Assembly (NCBI GenBank): GCA_022798035.1
Contig: JAAWLS010000030.1
Location: forward strand, 1 to 13,641
Length of the DNA stretch: 13,641 nt
Direction of reading: 5' to 3'
Source: Lachnospiraceae bacterium
GTDB lineage: Bacteria > Bacillota > Clostridia > Lachnospirales > Lachnospiraceae
Of this stretch, positions 1,688-7,745 are shown in pieces (the first letter of the stretch is position 1; each line of letters begins with the position of its first letter). The position numbers and the translations under genes are program-made. The notes below the pieces were generated by a model, which was given only the letters and a program-made list of their open reading frames with translations, ran no database searches and was not told the origin of the DNA.

Positions 1688-2260
1688 ATGGCAGAGGATA
1701 TCATGTGGAGAGAGACTGAGAATTTCTCAGACGCCGGGGAGACAGCGGAACTTTTGGAAGAAGATTTTGTGGGAGAAGATGATAAACCGGAGGATGCGGT
1801 GCGGGTCTATATTCAGATAGATGGAACGTATTCCATGGAAACTGTCATTGAAAAAATTTCAGCGGAAGTTCTTGGAGGAGCAAAACTGGATGTGCACAGC
1901 AGACGGCCGGAAGATGGAATTTTGACAGCTTACATTTCTTATGAGCAAATTACTGCCATTCAGGAGGTGGGAGGCGTTGCCTCTGTGGAGCTGGTGGAAA
2001 AGGCCGAACAGACAGAATCGGAGAAATCTTCAAAGGCCGAAAAGGAAACAGGTGCAGAAAAATCTTTAAAAGATGAAAAGGAAACAGGCGCAGAAAAATC
2101 TTCAAAAGACGAAAAGGAAACAGACGCAGAAAAGAGTACGGAAACCGGAATGCAAAACAGCATTCCGGTTTCCAAAATAGCTGGTGTGACAGCCGTTCTT
2201 TTGGCGGTGATTATCCTTTTGGCGGCGGTGAAAAGCAAGCGAAAGAGAAAGGGAAAATGA
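1688..2260 (+). CDS. Membrane-anchored stand-alone subtilisin-prodomain-like (I9-like) protein
   Basis: This 190-residue protein has an acidic N-terminus, a compact domain at about 37-105, a Lys/Glu repeat linker (112-152), one transmembrane segment (about 164-181) and a basic tail KSKRKRKGK. The domain (VRVYIQIDG at its start, EQITAIQEVGGVASVEL at its end) can be aligned by eye with the I9 prodomain of the subtilase encoded next (VRVFIVMEG; DIDKIKEIKGVEQVHIV), so it looks like a detached prodomain. Prodomains of this family fold and inhibit their protease; acting in trans here is inference. The start is set by AAGGAGG at 1676-1682, 5 nt before the ATG; upstream TTG 1634 and ATG 1652 would overlap or abut the Nudix gene and have poorer sites. 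Odd point: no signal peptide, although the basic tail suggests the C-terminus is inside. Its stop overlaps the subtilase start (ATGA). Confidence 0.75.
   Translation: MAEDIMWRETENFSDAGETAELLEEDFVGEDDKPEDAVRVYIQIDGTYSMETVIEKISAEVLGGAKLDVHSRRPEDGILTAYISYEQITAIQEVGGVASVELVEKAEQTESEKSSKAEKETGAEKSLKDEKETGAEKSSKDEKETDAEKSTETGMQNSIPVSKIAGVTAVLLAVIILLAAVKSKRKRKGK
2021..2128 (+). repeat. Three in-frame 36-bp tandem repeats (12-residue linker unit)
   Basis: Units at 2021-2056, 2057-2092 and 2093-2128 encode EKSSKAEKETGA, EKSLKDEKETGA and EKSSKDEKETDA, and a broken fourth copy (EKSTETG) follows. They form the charged linker between the prodomain-like domain and the transmembrane segment. Because the unit is a multiple of three, copy-number change would lengthen or shorten the stalk without breaking the frame. 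Confidence 0.9.
2140..2173. other. Perfect 14-bp inverted repeat with 6-nt loop inside the coding sequence
   Basis: GGAAACCGGAATGC (2140-2153), loop AAAACA, then GCATTCCGGTTTCC (2160-2173) pair without a mismatch. It lies in codons just before the transmembrane segment of the prodomain-like protein, about 85 nt before the subtilase start. No U-tract follows on the + strand, so it is not a classical terminator. It might slow ribosomes, limit read-through or protect a processed mRNA end, but its function is unknown. Confidence 0.85.
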
Positions 2261-5200
2261 AAATGAGAGGCAGCAGATGGAAGTGGAAAATATGTTCCTG
2301 GATGTTACTGGCGGGCCTTGTAACTGGCATGGCGGACACCGTCTGGGCAGTGTCAGGGGAACCTTCCAGAGCAGAGCAGGCAGAGAAAGAGGAAATCCCT
2401 GTTTCCGATAGTCTGCTCTGGACAGAGGAGACAGAAAATGCAGGCGGCAGGGCGGCTTTTGAAGAGCCTTTGGAGGAGACGTTTGTCCAGGAGCCGGAGG
2501 CGCCTGTAGAAGAGCAGCACAACCCGGAGGAGAAAGTCCGGGTATTTATTGTGATGGAAGGGGATTCTGTGACAGACGCAGGATACTCCGCCGCAGAGAT
2601 TGCAGACAGTACAAGGGCTGCCGGATTTTCCCAGGAGATGGAGGACAGGCAGAATCAGATTGTGAAAGAGATTGCGCAGTGTCTGCAGCAGTCTGACCTG
2701 GAAATCCGATACCATTTCACCTTGTTTTCCAACGCAGTGTCTGCAGTTGTGGCTTACGGCGACATTGATAAAATAAAAGAGATAAAAGGAGTGGAACAAG
2801 TACATATCGTTCCTCAGTATGAGATTCAGGAGACGGCGGACACAAATACTGTCACTGCCGGCGAGATGATAGGAAGCGTTCAGGCCTGGGAGAGCGGGTA
2901 CACAGGAGCCGGGGAGCGGATTGCCATTATTGATACGGGAATTGACGCAGACCATCCTTCCTTTGACCCAGGCGCATTCCGTTACGGGCTGGAAATGGCG
3001 GGACAGGAGAAGAAAAAAAATATATCAGACTATCATCTGCTGGGACAGGAGGAGATTGAAAACGTTTTAACTCAGTTAAACGCCAAAAGCCTGAAACAGG
3101 ATTTGAAGGGACAGGATGTATTTTTCAACGACAAGATTGCCTTTGGATTTAACTATGTGGACCGTGATTTGAATATTACCCATGAGAAGGACAGTCAGGG
3201 GGACCATGGAACCCATGTGGCGGGAATTGCCGCCGCCAATCAATATGTGCCCAAGGCAGACGGAGGATATGAGGAACCGGCGAACGGCGTGATGGGAGTT
3301 GCGAAAAACGCTCAGCTTTTGGTGATGAAAGTATTTGGCTCCGGAGGCGGCGCCTATACGGACGACTACATGGCGGCTCTCGAGGACGCTGTCCTGCTGG
3401 GAGCAGACGTGATTAATATGAGCCTCGGGGAAGTCTATGCCGGAGAGAGTTCTGAATACGCCCAGGCGGAACAGTATGTAAATGAAATCTTTGAAAAATT
3501 ATCCGGCACAGACACAGTTGTGAGTATTTCAGCCGGAAATACAGGAAGCTGGTCTGACAACAGCGTCTATGGGGCAAACCGCACGGATGATGTCAATATG
3601 GACGCCATAGGAGTTCCCGCTTCCTATACCAATGCTTTTACTATAGGAAGCGCTCAAAACAGTGGTTTTACCGGCCATTGTGTGCAGGTGGGGGATGCCA
3701 GTATATTTTATGATGAATCTGGTTCTTCCGGAGGAATCTCTGCTTTTTCATCCCTGGACACCACAGGAGAGGGGACAGATTACGAGTATGTATTTTTGGA
3801 TACCTTTGGAGAAGCCGAGGACTATATCCGGCAGGATGTGACAGGAAAAATTGTTCTGGTGAGCAGAGGCGTGATTTCTTTTTCTGAAAAGCACCAAAAT
3901 GCAGCAGCCGCAGGAGCAGCCGGAATCTTTGTGTACAACAATGAGCCAGGTCTGAGCGCTATGAGCCTTACAGATTCCGGGGCTGATATTCCCTGCGCTA
4001 TGATTTCCCAGACGGATGCCCAGATAATAGAAAAGAAAGGGGCGGCCGGGACGATGAAAATTTTGTCGCAGGTTGTCACAAACCATTCTGCGGAGGATGG
4101 ATATCAGATGAGTGATTTTTCTTCCTGGGGAGTTCCCGGGGATTTGACGCTGAAGCCGGAACTGACGGCTCCCGGAGGAAATATCTATTCCACGTTGGAT
4201 AAAGGAACATACGGAAATCAGAGCGGTACCTCTATGGCGGCTCCCAGCGTGGCAGGAATGAGCGCGCTGGTGTCAGAGTACATCAAAGAAAATGGTTTGG
4301 CAGAGAAAACGGGACTGAGCATCAGGACTTTGAATCAGTCTCTTTTGATGAGCACGGCGAAACCGCTGACGGAGGAAGATGGGGAAGCCTATTCTCCCAG
4401 AAAACAGGGAAGCGGACTTGCCAACGTGGCGGCTGCCACAGCAACGCCTGTCTATCTTTTGGTGGGAGACAAGGAAGGAAACGATGGAAAAGTAAAGGCG
4501 GAGCTGGGGGACGACCCCTCCAGAAGCGGCGTGTATGAATTTAACTTTACCATGTACAATATGTCGGACAAGAACCAGTATTATACGGTGGACAGCTCTG
4601 TGATGACGGAGCAGGTGATTGAGGAACAATTTTTCAATGGAAGTTCCCACAGACTTCATCCTCAGGTAACTGTCAATTCTCCCCAAAAGGAAAAAATATA
4701 TGATTTGAATGGAGACGGACAGGTGAACCGGGAGGACGGGCTGGAATTGCTGCGCCACGTAAACCAGTCTGTCATCTTGGACAAAGCAGAATATTATACG
4801 GATAAGTTTGATTTTAATTCAGACGGTGTGATAAATACGGCAGATGTGCATGCTTTTTTGCGGGAGCTGGAAAAAGACATGCCGGATGTGGATTTAGAAG
4901 AGACTTGTGTGAAAGTGGAGCAGAGCACAGAGGTATCGGTTAAGATTACCTTGTCCGAGGAGGACAGACAGTATTTGGACACTTATTTTGCCCATGGAAT
5001 GTACATAGACGGATTTCTGTATCTGGACGGAAAAGTTCCGTTGTCTCTGCCGATGCTGGCGTTCTATGGAAGCTGGGCAGAATCTTCCATGTTCGAGCCC
5101 TTTGACTATCTCACTTATGTAAACGGCGGGGCAGAACGCACGCACCCTGCTTACAGTGGGATTCAGACTGCAAATTATCTGACGTATCGTCTTGCAGGGG

Positions 5201-7023
5201 ACAAAAAAGATTATTATTATACCGCTAATATGTACTGCAGCCAGCGGGACGAAGAATATCTTCCTGACAGAAATGCATTTTCACCGCAGTCCGGGGACAG
5301 CTTTGGAGCCGTTTCTTACAGTTTGATTCGAAATGCTGTTCTGGTGAGGATTTCCATTGTCGATGCCAAGACGGGAGAAGTCTATTATGAGAATCAGGAA
5401 GGGGGACAGCATGCGGCTTTCTACCATGAGGGTGAGGGAAAATGGCGCGACACCTCTTATCGCGCTGTTTTAGACTGGTCTGGAACAGATGCAAAAGGAA
5501 ATCCTTTGCCGGAAGGGACCAAAGTAAACATAAGCGTTACGGCTCTGCCTGCTTATTATGCCAAAGACAGAGAAGTGACAGGAGAAGGATTGACCTGGAA
5601 TGTTCCGGTAACCATGGATGACACGGCGCCAAAAGCAGTGGACATGGCAGAGACAGAGAATGGAAAAATCCGGATTACCGTGAAAGACAACCGCTATACG
5701 GCGGCAGTGAATGTGTATGAGAGAGACAAGACAACGCTGATTGATTCCTATGCTGTCAATCAGAAAGAAGCAGGCCGGGAAGCCTCTGTGGATATCTCAT
5801 ATCCTGCGAAAGTGTTTTATGTGAAGATTGTGGACTATGCGGGAAATGAAACTGTTTACCGCGTCAACCGAAGCGCTCAGGAGGACACGGAGATTACAGA
5901 AGGCGTGACATTGAGTGAGACGACGCTGCGTCTTATAGGAGGGGAAGAGAAGAAACTGACTGCGCTGGTGGAGCCGGAGAGTATTTTGGATGACACAGTT
6001 GTCTGGAGCAGCAGTGATGAAAATATTGCAACGGTAGATGGAGAAGGCCTGGTAAAAGGAGTGGGAATTGGCACAACGAAGATTACAGCCACGACAAATG
6101 CCCAAAATGCGGCGGGAGAGAAAGAGACGGCAGAATGTGAGGTGACGGTGCTTGCGCCTTCTATACGGATGAATGGAATTATCTGGGAACAGCCCGGTGC
6201 TGTGCGCTGGGCGCAGTTCTCTTCGGACCACACCCAGGAAACTGCCTGGCTGTCGGAGGCCCAGAGCAATCTTTATATGGCTGCGGCAGTTGTGGGAGAC
6301 AAGGTGATGGCGGCCACTTACACGACGGATGGAAATCAGAAGTCCGAAATTTATCTGGTAGATGCGTCCAACAGTTATGAGGCCAAGAAGGTGGGAGACA
6401 CCTACTGGTGCACCGATATGGCCTACAGCCCCAAGACAAATCTGATGTTTGCTGTGTACGGGGATTATGTGCATTGGTTTGATGTTTCCAATGCTGGGAA
6501 AGTGGGAGTCAGCAGTTTTAAGGATGTGACAGGAGGCAGCAGTCTGGTGGGAATTGCCTATGCAGGCTGCAGTGAAAACAGCCAGTACGGTCCTGTGGAA
6601 TGGTTCTATGCTGTGAGCCAGTCTGGGACACTGTATCAGCTTGCCTACTGTATCAATGAGGGAGCATTTCGGTATGCAGATTTGGGAAATACCGGGATAA
6701 GCACGAAAAGCCAGTGGTATTTTAATTCTCTTTACTATGAACAGGACAGTAAAACGCTGTTCTGGGCCATGTATGATGGAGACAGCAGCGCCGCCCTCTA
6801 TGCACTGCAGGAAAAATCAAATGCAGCGGGAAATACTTTGATTCAGAACTATGAGCTTGGCAAGTTTCCCGACGGACAGTACCCGGCGGCAGGTTTGTAC
6901 CAGCCTCCAAAAGAGACCGGGCAGGCGTATCAGGCGCCGGAGCATGTAACGGAAAGAGATACGCAGCTTTTGGATGTGCCCAAAGCGGCTGAGCCAGAGA
7001 AAAAAGAAGAGGTGCTAAGATGA
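2257..7023 (+). CDS. Secreted multidomain S8 subtilase (lactocepin/C5a-peptidase-like) with an internal dockerin
   Basis: A 1588-residue extracellular serine protease. In order: signal peptide (1-31, cleavage likely after VWA); acidic linker; I9 prodomain (about 93-190); peptidase S8 with D226 (IIDTGID), H317 (HGTHVAGI), oxyanion N428 (SAGN) and S659 (GTSMAAP); a PA domain inserted at about 505-605; an Fn3-like domain (about 758-923) interrupted by a type I dockerin (814-873); a second beta-rich region (about 940-1205); a Big_2 Ig-like domain (about 1213-1298); and a C-terminal region (about 1303-1550) with four blade-like repeats suggesting a beta-propeller. The catalytic triad is complete, so it should be active. 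It has no LPXTG, transmembrane or S-layer anchor; the dockerin may supply attachment through the cohesin-like protein encoded next. Both gene junctions are ATGA overlaps, implying translational coupling. The start ATG has AAAGGG just upstream. Substrate unknown. Confidence 0.95.
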   Translation: MKMRGSRWKWKICSWMLLAGLVTGMADTVWAVSGEPSRAEQAEKEEIPVSDSLLWTEETENAGGRAAFEEPLEETFVQEPEAPVEEQHNPEEKVRVFIVMEGDSVTDAGYSAAEIADSTRAAGFSQEMEDRQNQIVKEIAQCLQQSDLEIRYHFTLFSNAVSAVVAYGDIDKIKEIKGVEQVHIVPQYEIQETADTNTVTAGEMIGSVQAWESGYTGAGERIAIIDTGIDADHPSFDPGAFRYGLEMAGQEKKKNISDYHLLGQEEIENVLTQLNAKSLKQDLKGQDVFFNDKIAFGFNYVDRDLNITHEKDSQGDHGTHVAGIAAANQYVPKADGGYEEPANGVMGVAKNAQLLVMKVFGSGGGAYTDDYMAALEDAVLLGADVINMSLGEVYAGESSEYAQAEQYVNEIFEKLSGTDTVVSISAGNTGSWSDNSVYGANRTDDVNMDAIGVPASYTNAFTIGSAQNSGFTGHCVQVGDASIFYDESGSSGGISAFSSLDTTGEGTDYEYVFLDTFGEAEDYIRQDVTGKIVLVSRGVISFSEKHQNAAAAGAAGIFVYNNEPGLSAMSLTDSGADIPCAMISQTDAQIIEKKGAAGTMKILSQVVTNHSAEDGYQMSDFSSWGVPGDLTLKPELTAPGGNIYSTLDKGTYGNQSGTSMAAPSVAGMSALVSEYIKENGLAEKTGLSIRTLNQSLLMSTAKPLTEEDGEAYSPRKQGSGLANVAAATATPVYLLVGDKEGNDGKVKAELGDDPSRSGVYEFNFTMYNMSDKNQYYTVDSSVMTEQVIEEQFFNGSSHRLHPQVTVNSPQKEKIYDLNGDGQVNREDGLELLRHVNQSVILDKAEYYTDKFDFNSDGVINTADVHAFLRELEKDMPDVDLEETCVKVEQSTEVSVKITLSEEDRQYLDTYFAHGMYIDGFLYLDGKVPLSLPMLAFYGSWAESSMFEPFDYLTYVNGGAERTHPAYSGIQTANYLTYRLAGDKKDYYYTANMYCSQRDEEYLPDRNAFSPQSGDSFGAVSYSLIRNAVLVRISIVDAKTGEVYYENQEGGQHAAFYHEGEGKWRDTSYRAVLDWSGTDAKGNPLPEGTKVNISVTALPAYYAKDREVTGEGLTWNVPVTMDDTAPKAVDMAETENGKIRITVKDNRYTAAVNVYERDKTTLIDSYAVNQKEAGREASVDISYPAKVFYVKIVDYAGNETVYRVNRSAQEDTEITEGVTLSETTLRLIGGEEKKLTALVEPESILDDTVVWSSSDENIATVDGEGLVKGVGIGTTKITATTNAQNAAGEKETAECEVTVLAPSIRMNGIIWEQPGAVRWAQFSSDHTQETAWLSEAQSNLYMAAAVVGDKVMAATYTTDGNQKSEIYLVDASNSYEAKKVGDTYWCTDMAYSPKTNLMFAVYGDYVHWFDVSNAGKVGVSSFKDVTGGSSLVGIAYAGCSENSQYGPVEWFYAVSQSGTLYQLAYCINEGAFRYADLGNTGISTKSQWYFNSLYYEQDSKTLFWAMYDGDSSAALYALQEKSNAAGNTLIQNYELGKFPDGQYPAAGLYQPPKETGQAYQAPEHVTERDTQLLDVPKAAEPEKKEEVLR
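4696..4875 (+). other. Dockerin type I module coding segment within the subtilase
   Basis: Residues 814-873 of the subtilase hold two dockerin repeats. Each has a calcium-binding loop followed by a helix: D816-x-N818-x-D820 with D827 at the twelfth position, then LELLRHV; and D852-x-N854-x-D856 with D863, then HAFLREL. Dockerins bind cohesins. It sits inside the Fn3-like domain, whose strands resume right after it (VDLEETCVKVEQSTEVSVKI). Confidence 0.88.
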
Positions 7024-7745
7024 GGAAAAGTTTGAGCATAGTGACAGGCCTTTTGTGCTGTTTTCTGCTGGGGCAGAACCTTCTGCCCGCAGAGGCAGCA
7101 CAGAAAATAGAAGAAACCCAGGAAGCAGGGACAGCACAGGAGGGGAAAGATTACGTGGAGACGACGTTGGAGGCGGAGGATGCAGATGTGACGCTGACCG
7201 TCAGAATACGGAAAGAGAGCCAGATAACCAGCGGCAGAATAGCAGTGTATTGTGATTCGGATTTGCTGGAATTGTCTGAGGCAAAAACCGGGAATCTCTG
7301 GGAGACAGAGGACGTCAATGATAAAATGACGGAGGATGGAAAAAAGGGGCTGTCCTATGCATGGGCAGATACCGGCAGGCAGACAGAGGAGGGCACTCTG
7401 ATTACCGTATCTTTTCGGGCATCAGAAAGAGCAGACGGGCAGGAAGTATCAGTGGAGACGAGAATTTTAGAACTCTATTCGGAACAGACAGTCCTTTCTC
7501 CTGCGTGGAAGAAAAAGACGGATAAAGTAAAAATACATTTGGAGGACGGCAGAGATAAACCGGACAATGAGGAAAGCAATCAGGAAGAAGCCAGTGAAGA
7601 GGAGGATGGAGAGAGCGGAGAGCAAAAATCAGGTTCCGGGGTGCAGACAGGAGACGATACCAATCTGGCTGGCTGGATTCTGACCGCTTTTGGTGCGGTT
7701 TTGGTGATTCTGGATGCGGGAAGAAAGGTTAAGAATATAAATTAA
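7020..7745 (+). CDS. Anchored cohesin-like domain protein (putative one-domain scaffoldin)
   Basis: The 241-residue protein has a signal peptide (1-26, ending AEA), a beta-rich domain at about 52-175, an acidic Glu/Asp/Ser linker (about 176-205), and a tail with VQTGD, a hydrophobic segment (217-232) and RKVK. The domain resembles cohesins: VTLTVRI, a SGRIAVYCDSDLLEL strand pair, GNLWETEDVN, a GLSYAWAD strand, and GTLITVSFRA. Cohesins bind dockerins, and the gene upstream encodes a dockerin protease whose stop codon overlaps this start (ATGA, with GAAGAGG at 7006-7012), so a partner relationship is a strong inference. The tail looks like a degenerate sortase signal (VQTGD where LPXTG or PKTGD would be expected); plain membrane anchoring is equally possible. 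Another beta-sandwich family cannot be excluded by eye. Confidence 0.72.
   Translation: MRKSLSIVTGLLCCFLLGQNLLPAEAAQKIEETQEAGTAQEGKDYVETTLEAEDADVTLTVRIRKESQITSGRIAVYCDSDLLELSEAKTGNLWETEDVNDKMTEDGKKGLSYAWADTGRQTEEGTLITVSFRASERADGQEVSVETRILELYSEQTVLSPAWKKKTDKVKIHLEDGRDKPDNEESNQEEASEEEDGESGEQKSGSGVQTGDDTNLAGWILTAFGAVLVILDAGRKVKNIN

Follow-up and report, generated by a model that had tools for sequence, protein, structure and literature searches.

A dockerin-bearing subtilase and its single-cohesin neighbour as a candidate surface-display pair in Lachnospiraceae

Contig JAAWLS010000030.1 of a Lachnospiraceae bacterium (assembly GCA_022798035.1), analyzed whole and called the window here (13,641 nucleotides; C4 of a 2.26 Mb genome in 325 contigs, 64% complete), carries three plus-strand genes at 1688–2260, 2257–7023 and 7020–7745, the second encoding a secreted subtilase with an internal dockerin and the third a protein with a single cohesin. 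We consider it probable, at roughly 70%, that these two proteins are a private surface-display pair in which the dockerin subtilase is held by the single-cohesin anchor encoded next to it, through a predicted binding; the domain content suggests one enzyme tethered at the cell surface through a dedicated cohesin–dockerin pair of the cellulosome type. An earlier note on this DNA, made from the sequence alone, had described the three genes as a unit joined by two ATGA overlaps, which is what we find (2257–2260 and 7020–7023). It had also proposed a minimal one-enzyme, one-scaffoldin display, and this display, with its putative binding, is supported by domain calls, the conserved order of the genes, their co-occurrence and a natural fusion, all read from sequence, and by a modelled cohesin fold. 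The features of the pair are:

2257–7023, plus strand: gene 2, secreted C5a-peptidase-like subtilase of 1588 residues with an internal dockerin
2533–2826, plus strand: the subtilase's own I9-like prodomain, about residues 93–190
2908–4416, plus strand: S8 catalytic domain, residues 218–720 (D226, H317, N428, S659), with a PA insert at 3811–4026
4534–4653, plus strand: first part of an Fn3-like domain, corresponding to fn3_5 positions 10–51 (18.0 bits, below the cut-off)
4699–4851, plus strand: type I dockerin (Pfam Dockerin_1), residues 815–865, inserted in the Fn3-like domain
5899–6114, plus strand: Big_2 Ig-like domain (Pfam), residues 1215–1286
7020–7745, plus strand: gene 3, single-cohesin protein with a hydrophobic N-terminus and a sortase-like tail
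7146–7544, plus strand: cohesin fold, residues 43–175 (Pfam stretch 50–145), from Pfam and the predicted fold
7644–7742, plus strand: sorting signal of what we take to be the QTGD type, with hydrophobic stretch and basic tail, residues 209–241

Pfam identified Peptidase_S8 (E 4.3e-45), PA, Big_2 and Dockerin_1 in gene 2, and D226, H317, N428 and S659 are conserved in all twelve aligned relatives. The eleven best PDB sequence matches were to C5a peptidase, chemokine protease C and cell-envelope proteinases, and the matches to these relatives stop at residues 790–801, directly before the dockerin. The catalytic tetrad, the PA domain and the Fn3-like region (fn3_5 being below its cut-off in the window) place the protein in the C5a-peptidase-like S8 class; it falls outside the SGO_0316-type LPXTG-anchored subfamily, scoring 256.8 bits with NF040553 against a cut-off of 1400. 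Inhibitor_I9 was matched at E≤1 by 10 of the 12 aligned subtilase copies (best 2.2e-4), the window copy not being among them. Related streptococcal and lactobacillar proteases have covalent C-terminal anchors (LPXTG); on the window subtilase no C-terminal anchor was seen when the C-terminus was read by eye and, with Dockerin_1 over its cut-off, the earlier description of a secreted subtilase with a dockerin but no anchor stands.

The dockerin scores 27.2 bits against a cut-off of 22.9 and comprises two calcium-loop halves; both loops are present in all twelve dockerins aligned, with ligand positions 1, 5 and 12, by the numbering that we assume for such loops, kept in both halves. Dockerin chains head the list of PDB matches, which also includes EF-hand proteins; a combined Fn3–dockerin profile likewise matched dockerins and EF-hand proteins in PDB and no Fn3 relative, and the region behind the dockerin gave nothing informative there. 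Dockerins usually sit at a protein terminus; here the dockerin is, judged from the alignments, an insertion within the Fn3-like domain. Window residues 9–783 are shared by two paralogues of the genus whose contigs gave no dockerin match; in one (L094) homology resumes at window residue 879, the paralogue running from 843 to 871 where the window runs from 783 to 879, and in the other (L093) a second alignment begins at 806 and continues through the gap. After the dockerin, fn3_5 matches in L111 (positions 57–104, 33.5 bits, over the cut-off) and in L107 (positions 60–111, 23.8 bits, below it), and in the L112 subtilase, in which Pfam found no dockerin, fn3_5 positions 10–111 form one uninterrupted run.

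Gene 3 matches Cohesin at residues 50–145 with 31.0 bits (cut-off 24.1), as do all 12 rows of its alignment (A1) at E≤0.01, and its predicted structure is a cohesin fold, in line with the cohesin-like domain of the earlier note; the cohesin profile retrieved nothing informative from PDB sequences. The C-terminus reads GVQTGDDT, followed by a hydrophobic stretch and basic residues, with GVQTGD in place of a canonical LPXTG, and a comparable tail is found in 12/12 A1 rows, so that each row combines one cohesin with a predicted C-terminal sorting signal, as in ScaE. The C-terminal anchor that the note had assigned to this protein agrees with these tails, and the window's genome has two sortase-family matches over cut-off. 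A protein database search returned two proteins for gene 3, and two for gene 1.

Among 29 genomes of the genus, the dockerin subtilase has a strong match in 11 (E≤1.8e-53), a further two matching only weakly, over a short stretch of the Fn3-like part, and the cohesin protein is present in exactly the same 11. Across 145 relatives the cohesin protein was matched in 13 genomes, namely these 11, G077, which belongs to another genus and also has the pair, and G055. In G055 two cohesin-like proteins lie in tandem (L028, G055:C39), one of them ending in a KTGD tail, and the 16 kb read there contain no subtilase match. The subtilase and cohesin genes are separated by −14 to +33 bp in the 12 loci (11 of the genus and G077), the spacing in three of them using a start chosen inside a longer open reading frame (ORF). 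In 4/11 genomes (G000, G007, G015 and G016) there is one dockerin and one cohesin match at E≤0.1, both at the locus, and G007 is 99% complete. A cellulosome, with its multi-cohesin scaffoldin and many dockerin enzymes, was rejected for the window's genome, which has one cohesin and one dockerin match only (at 64% completeness).

Beyond the genus, the Fn3–dockerin profile, searched against 397 genomes of the family, gave matches at E≤1e-10 in 14 of them, ten with near full-profile rows (G000, G021, G077, G445, G213, G223, G316, G329, G148 and G320) and four with matches only to the part behind the dockerin. When six ORFs of other genera with near full-profile matches were scanned, Dockerin_1 exceeded its cut-off in L107, L109 and L111 and fell short of it in L113; for L108 and L114 Pfam gave no Dockerin_1 entry. 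At L111 (G213) the gene 17 bp beyond the dockerin subtilase encodes a TGD-tailed protein with FIVAR and a cohesin (28.1 bits when the piece was scanned alone), and L107:3001-8937 (G148:C48) is a single ORF of 1979 residues with S8, PA, internal dockerin, Big_2, cohesin (27.3 bits on a cut-out piece, no listing at full length) and QTGD tail. This natural fusion speaks for the modules being functionally linked. In G316 a genome profile search places cohesin matches in the subtilase frames, and these are absent from full-length Pfam scans; for G445 no partner can be judged, as the gene runs towards a contig end 609 bases away from the match. The TGD-tailed proteins upstream at L114 and L116 were not counted as cohesins, given weak scores with our own profile and no support from Pfam. 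An Eubacterium record has a KTGD-tail cohesin protein (L039:5390-6136) following an ORF of 1784 residues.

A different conserved gene pair accounts for most of the upstream dockerin–cohesin loci read in the family. A dockerin lies 0–700 bp upstream of a same-strand cohesin in at least 28 of the 397 genomes, sometimes in one ORF, the count being a lower bound since many dockerin rows from multi-dockerin genomes were left out. Fifteen loci picked by eye (L072–L086, e.g., L072:1626-3656 and 3681-5375, and L075:744-3392 and 3424-5184) have two separate ORFs in 14 cases, L074 being cut, and an acidic FEF[ILM]D tail ends 6 of the 14 partner ORFs. In the four loci scanned, the first protein always had Dockerin_1 and Cadherin-like, with SH3_3 over cut-off in one and Glucosaminidase below cut-off in one, and the second always had Cohesin and Cadherin-like.

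The remaining gene of the unit has these features:

1688–2260, plus strand: gene 1, with I9-like domain, charged linker, one C-terminal membrane helix and basic tail
1793–1999, plus strand: I9-like domain of gene 1, residues 36–104
2174–2230, plus strand: predicted membrane helix of gene 1, residues 163–181 (hydropathy maximum)

Profile comparison with hhalign relates gene 1 to the subtilase's own prodomain (probability 96.4%, E 1.2e-9), and its model resembles pro-subtilisin prodomains, POIA1 being a further fold match; Pfam listed no Inhibitor_I9 match on gene 1, and none in the genome at E≤1. Rifin-type Pfam matches, below cut-off and lying in the charged linker and tail, were attributed to composition. 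With this homology and fold, and the predicted helix, the I9-like domain on a membrane tail is as the earlier note had it, and an inhibitory or folding role is putative. Two parts of that note fell: the prodomain is not "detached", because the subtilase keeps its own and gene 1 is an extra copy, and the view of gene 1 as the protease's own regulator is unproven because it occurs in 3/29 genus genomes and shows no signal peptide. Of the three-gene order that the note had wished to see surveyed, the pair is the conserved part (adjacent in 11/11 and G077), and gene 1 is absent from eight of the 11 pair-bearing genomes. We consider gene 1 an accessory derived from a prodomain that could inhibit outside, assist inside or be dispensable.

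Which of these applies turns on the side of the membrane occupied by the I9-like domain. No hydrophobic stretch occurs within the first 40 residues of any of the five gene 1 copies, including P0003, whose start lies 12 codons earlier; on this and the AAGGAGG at 1676–1682 before the ATG at 1688, a hidden signal peptide upstream was rejected. It is conceivable, at somewhat less than even odds, that the domain is cytoplasmic and handles the protease while it is still unfolded and unexported, or that a partial duplication left it as a dispensable remnant, though its basic tail fits an outside N-terminus better, the I9 core is kept in the five copies at 31–92% identity, and the NapD fold is a common one. 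A three-part cassette, in which the membrane protein would act outside the cell to inhibit the docked protease in trans or to help it fold, appears unlikely to us. The homology to the prodomain fits such a role, as do the gene 1 profile's detection of the subtilase prodomain in 8 genomes, the position of gene 1 immediately before the subtilase in 3/3 genomes, and the acidic N-terminal part with basic tail, which by the charge rule fit an outside N-terminus; against it stand the missing signal peptide, the pair-bearing genomes without the gene and a protease that already has its prodomain.

If the surface-display pair is as we propose, the subtilase would be exported with its own prodomain and mature outside, and its dockerin, in a loop of the Fn3-like domain, would bind calcium and dock on the neighbor's single cohesin. 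The cohesin protein would be secreted and joined to the cell wall, presumably by sortase, via its C-terminal TGD signal, such that a non-covalent tether replaces a covalent C-terminal anchor on the enzyme, whose substrate may be an external protein. Several observations weigh against this reading. Exclusivity is not general, since 7/11 genomes have further or weaker dockerin or cohesin matches (in G003, three cohesins and four dockerin rows). The cohesins of G015 and G016 are below the Pfam cut-off, that of G004 was missed by Pfam and that of G077 has no TGD tail, and the third ligand position of the second dockerin half is His in 5/12 dockerins. Docking is not always needed for anchoring, because in G148 the TGD tail sits on the protease itself, and at L112 (G213:C13) a cohesin–FIVAR–TGD protein follows the subtilase without a Pfam dockerin. 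Moreover, the genes are linked and the genomes related, so that the 11 loci cannot be counted as separate events, and the distance correlation over the 11 pairs does not single out the dockerin: cohesin distances correlate with those of the dockerin at r 0.88, of the catalytic domain at 0.88 and of the domain behind at 0.92 (partial correlations 0.67 for the dockerin and 0.59 for the domain behind).

Some of these points bear on whether the tether is one-to-one. The dockerin might instead bind cohesins in trans, within a larger complex, or in cis or head-to-tail in fused chains, as further matches over cut-off (e.g., in G002, G003, G019 and G021) and the co-occurrence of dockerin and cohesin in the G148 chain would allow; the four genomes with one match each and the adjacency of the genes make this rather improbable. 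Least probable of all is that the insert is a calcium-stabilized EF-hand-like module without a partner and the neighboring cohesin-fold protein has another ligand, a reading to which EF-hand families matching the insert below their cut-offs, EF-hand proteins among the PDB matches, the His substitutions and L112 lend something, and with which Dockerin_1 over cut-off, dockerin chains at the head of the PDB list and an adjacent cohesin in 11/11 and G077 are at odds.

Upstream of the three genes the window encodes a PdaC/DUF3298-type protein truncated by the contig start and then a Nudix protein; downstream follow an AAA_11/AAA_12 protein, an FlxA-like protein, an Hpt protein and a response regulator with an HD domain (all by Pfam). 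The Nudix protein (549–1655) is a single chain with two Nudix stretches, and its long form also occurs in G009 (354 of 368 residues aligned), with only ~170 residues matching at nine other genus loci. No plasmid copy of the locus was found in PLSDB at megablast sensitivity, and no viral copy in a search with the cohesin alignment.

The components have precedents. ScaE of Ruminococcus flavefaciens is a sortase-anchored single-cohesin scaffoldin (PMC4081043, PMC2930009) that likewise holds a dockerin protein on the wall; it anchors a multi-enzyme cellulosome via ScaB, whereas the putative partner here is one neighbor-encoded protease and the tail is TGD rather than canonical LPXTG. A 2008 survey described subtilases with dockerins, as Sub_N-Subt-PA-Dockerin and Subt-(Dockerin_1)2 (PMC2605481), which resemble gene 2 in that a single chain carries S8 and dockerin, for one of the two also PA; gene 2 differs in having its dockerin within an Fn3-like domain and a neighboring gene for an anchored cohesin, and the portion consulted mentions no paired cohesin. 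C5a peptidase and the streptococcal–lactobacillar cell-envelope proteinases share the catalytic domain, PA insert and start of the Fn3-like region, and differ from gene 2, in which a dockerin interrupts the Fn3-like domain and no C-terminal wall anchor was seen. Limousia mucinolysomes also combine dockerin peptidases with a sortase-anchored scaffoldin in gut bacteria, with many enzymes and several scaffoldins rather than one enzyme and one receptor (PMC12997984). A single cohesin may hold dockerin enzymes at the surface in R. albus (PMC6118326), and a Lachnoclostridium has single-cohesin proteins with C-terminal helices and Acetivibrio mesophilus an S8 domain among its cohesin-containing proteins (PMC11557425). 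As for gene 1, a Plasmodium propeptide-like protein (PMC6993865) and POIA1 are stand-alone prodomain-like subtilase inhibitors that share the fold of its domain; for gene 1 inhibition is putative, and it differs in its C-terminal membrane helix and in having no visible signal peptide. Among the matches listed from the open-access literature, no title or abstract opening named a one-protease, one-cohesin pair, and the earlier statement that this is not a described system holds to that extent for the pair, though not for its parts, given the dockerin subtilases and ScaE. The display of one enzyme on one receptor would extend known cohesin–dockerin anchoring.

We speculate, doubtfully, that one-to-one pairs are a general means of reversible, calcium-dependent holding of single proteins (proteases, possibly wall hydrolases) in gut Lachnospiraceae, with a spare prodomain turned into a membrane controller of the docked protease in the window's lineage. 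The locus offers a small cohesin–dockerin pair amenable to direct testing. If the pair works as proposed, cohesin–dockerin docking would move from polysaccharide-degrading complexes to single-protease display by gut commensals, using a dockerin located inside an Fn3-like domain, and the substrates of these proteases may be host or dietary proteins.

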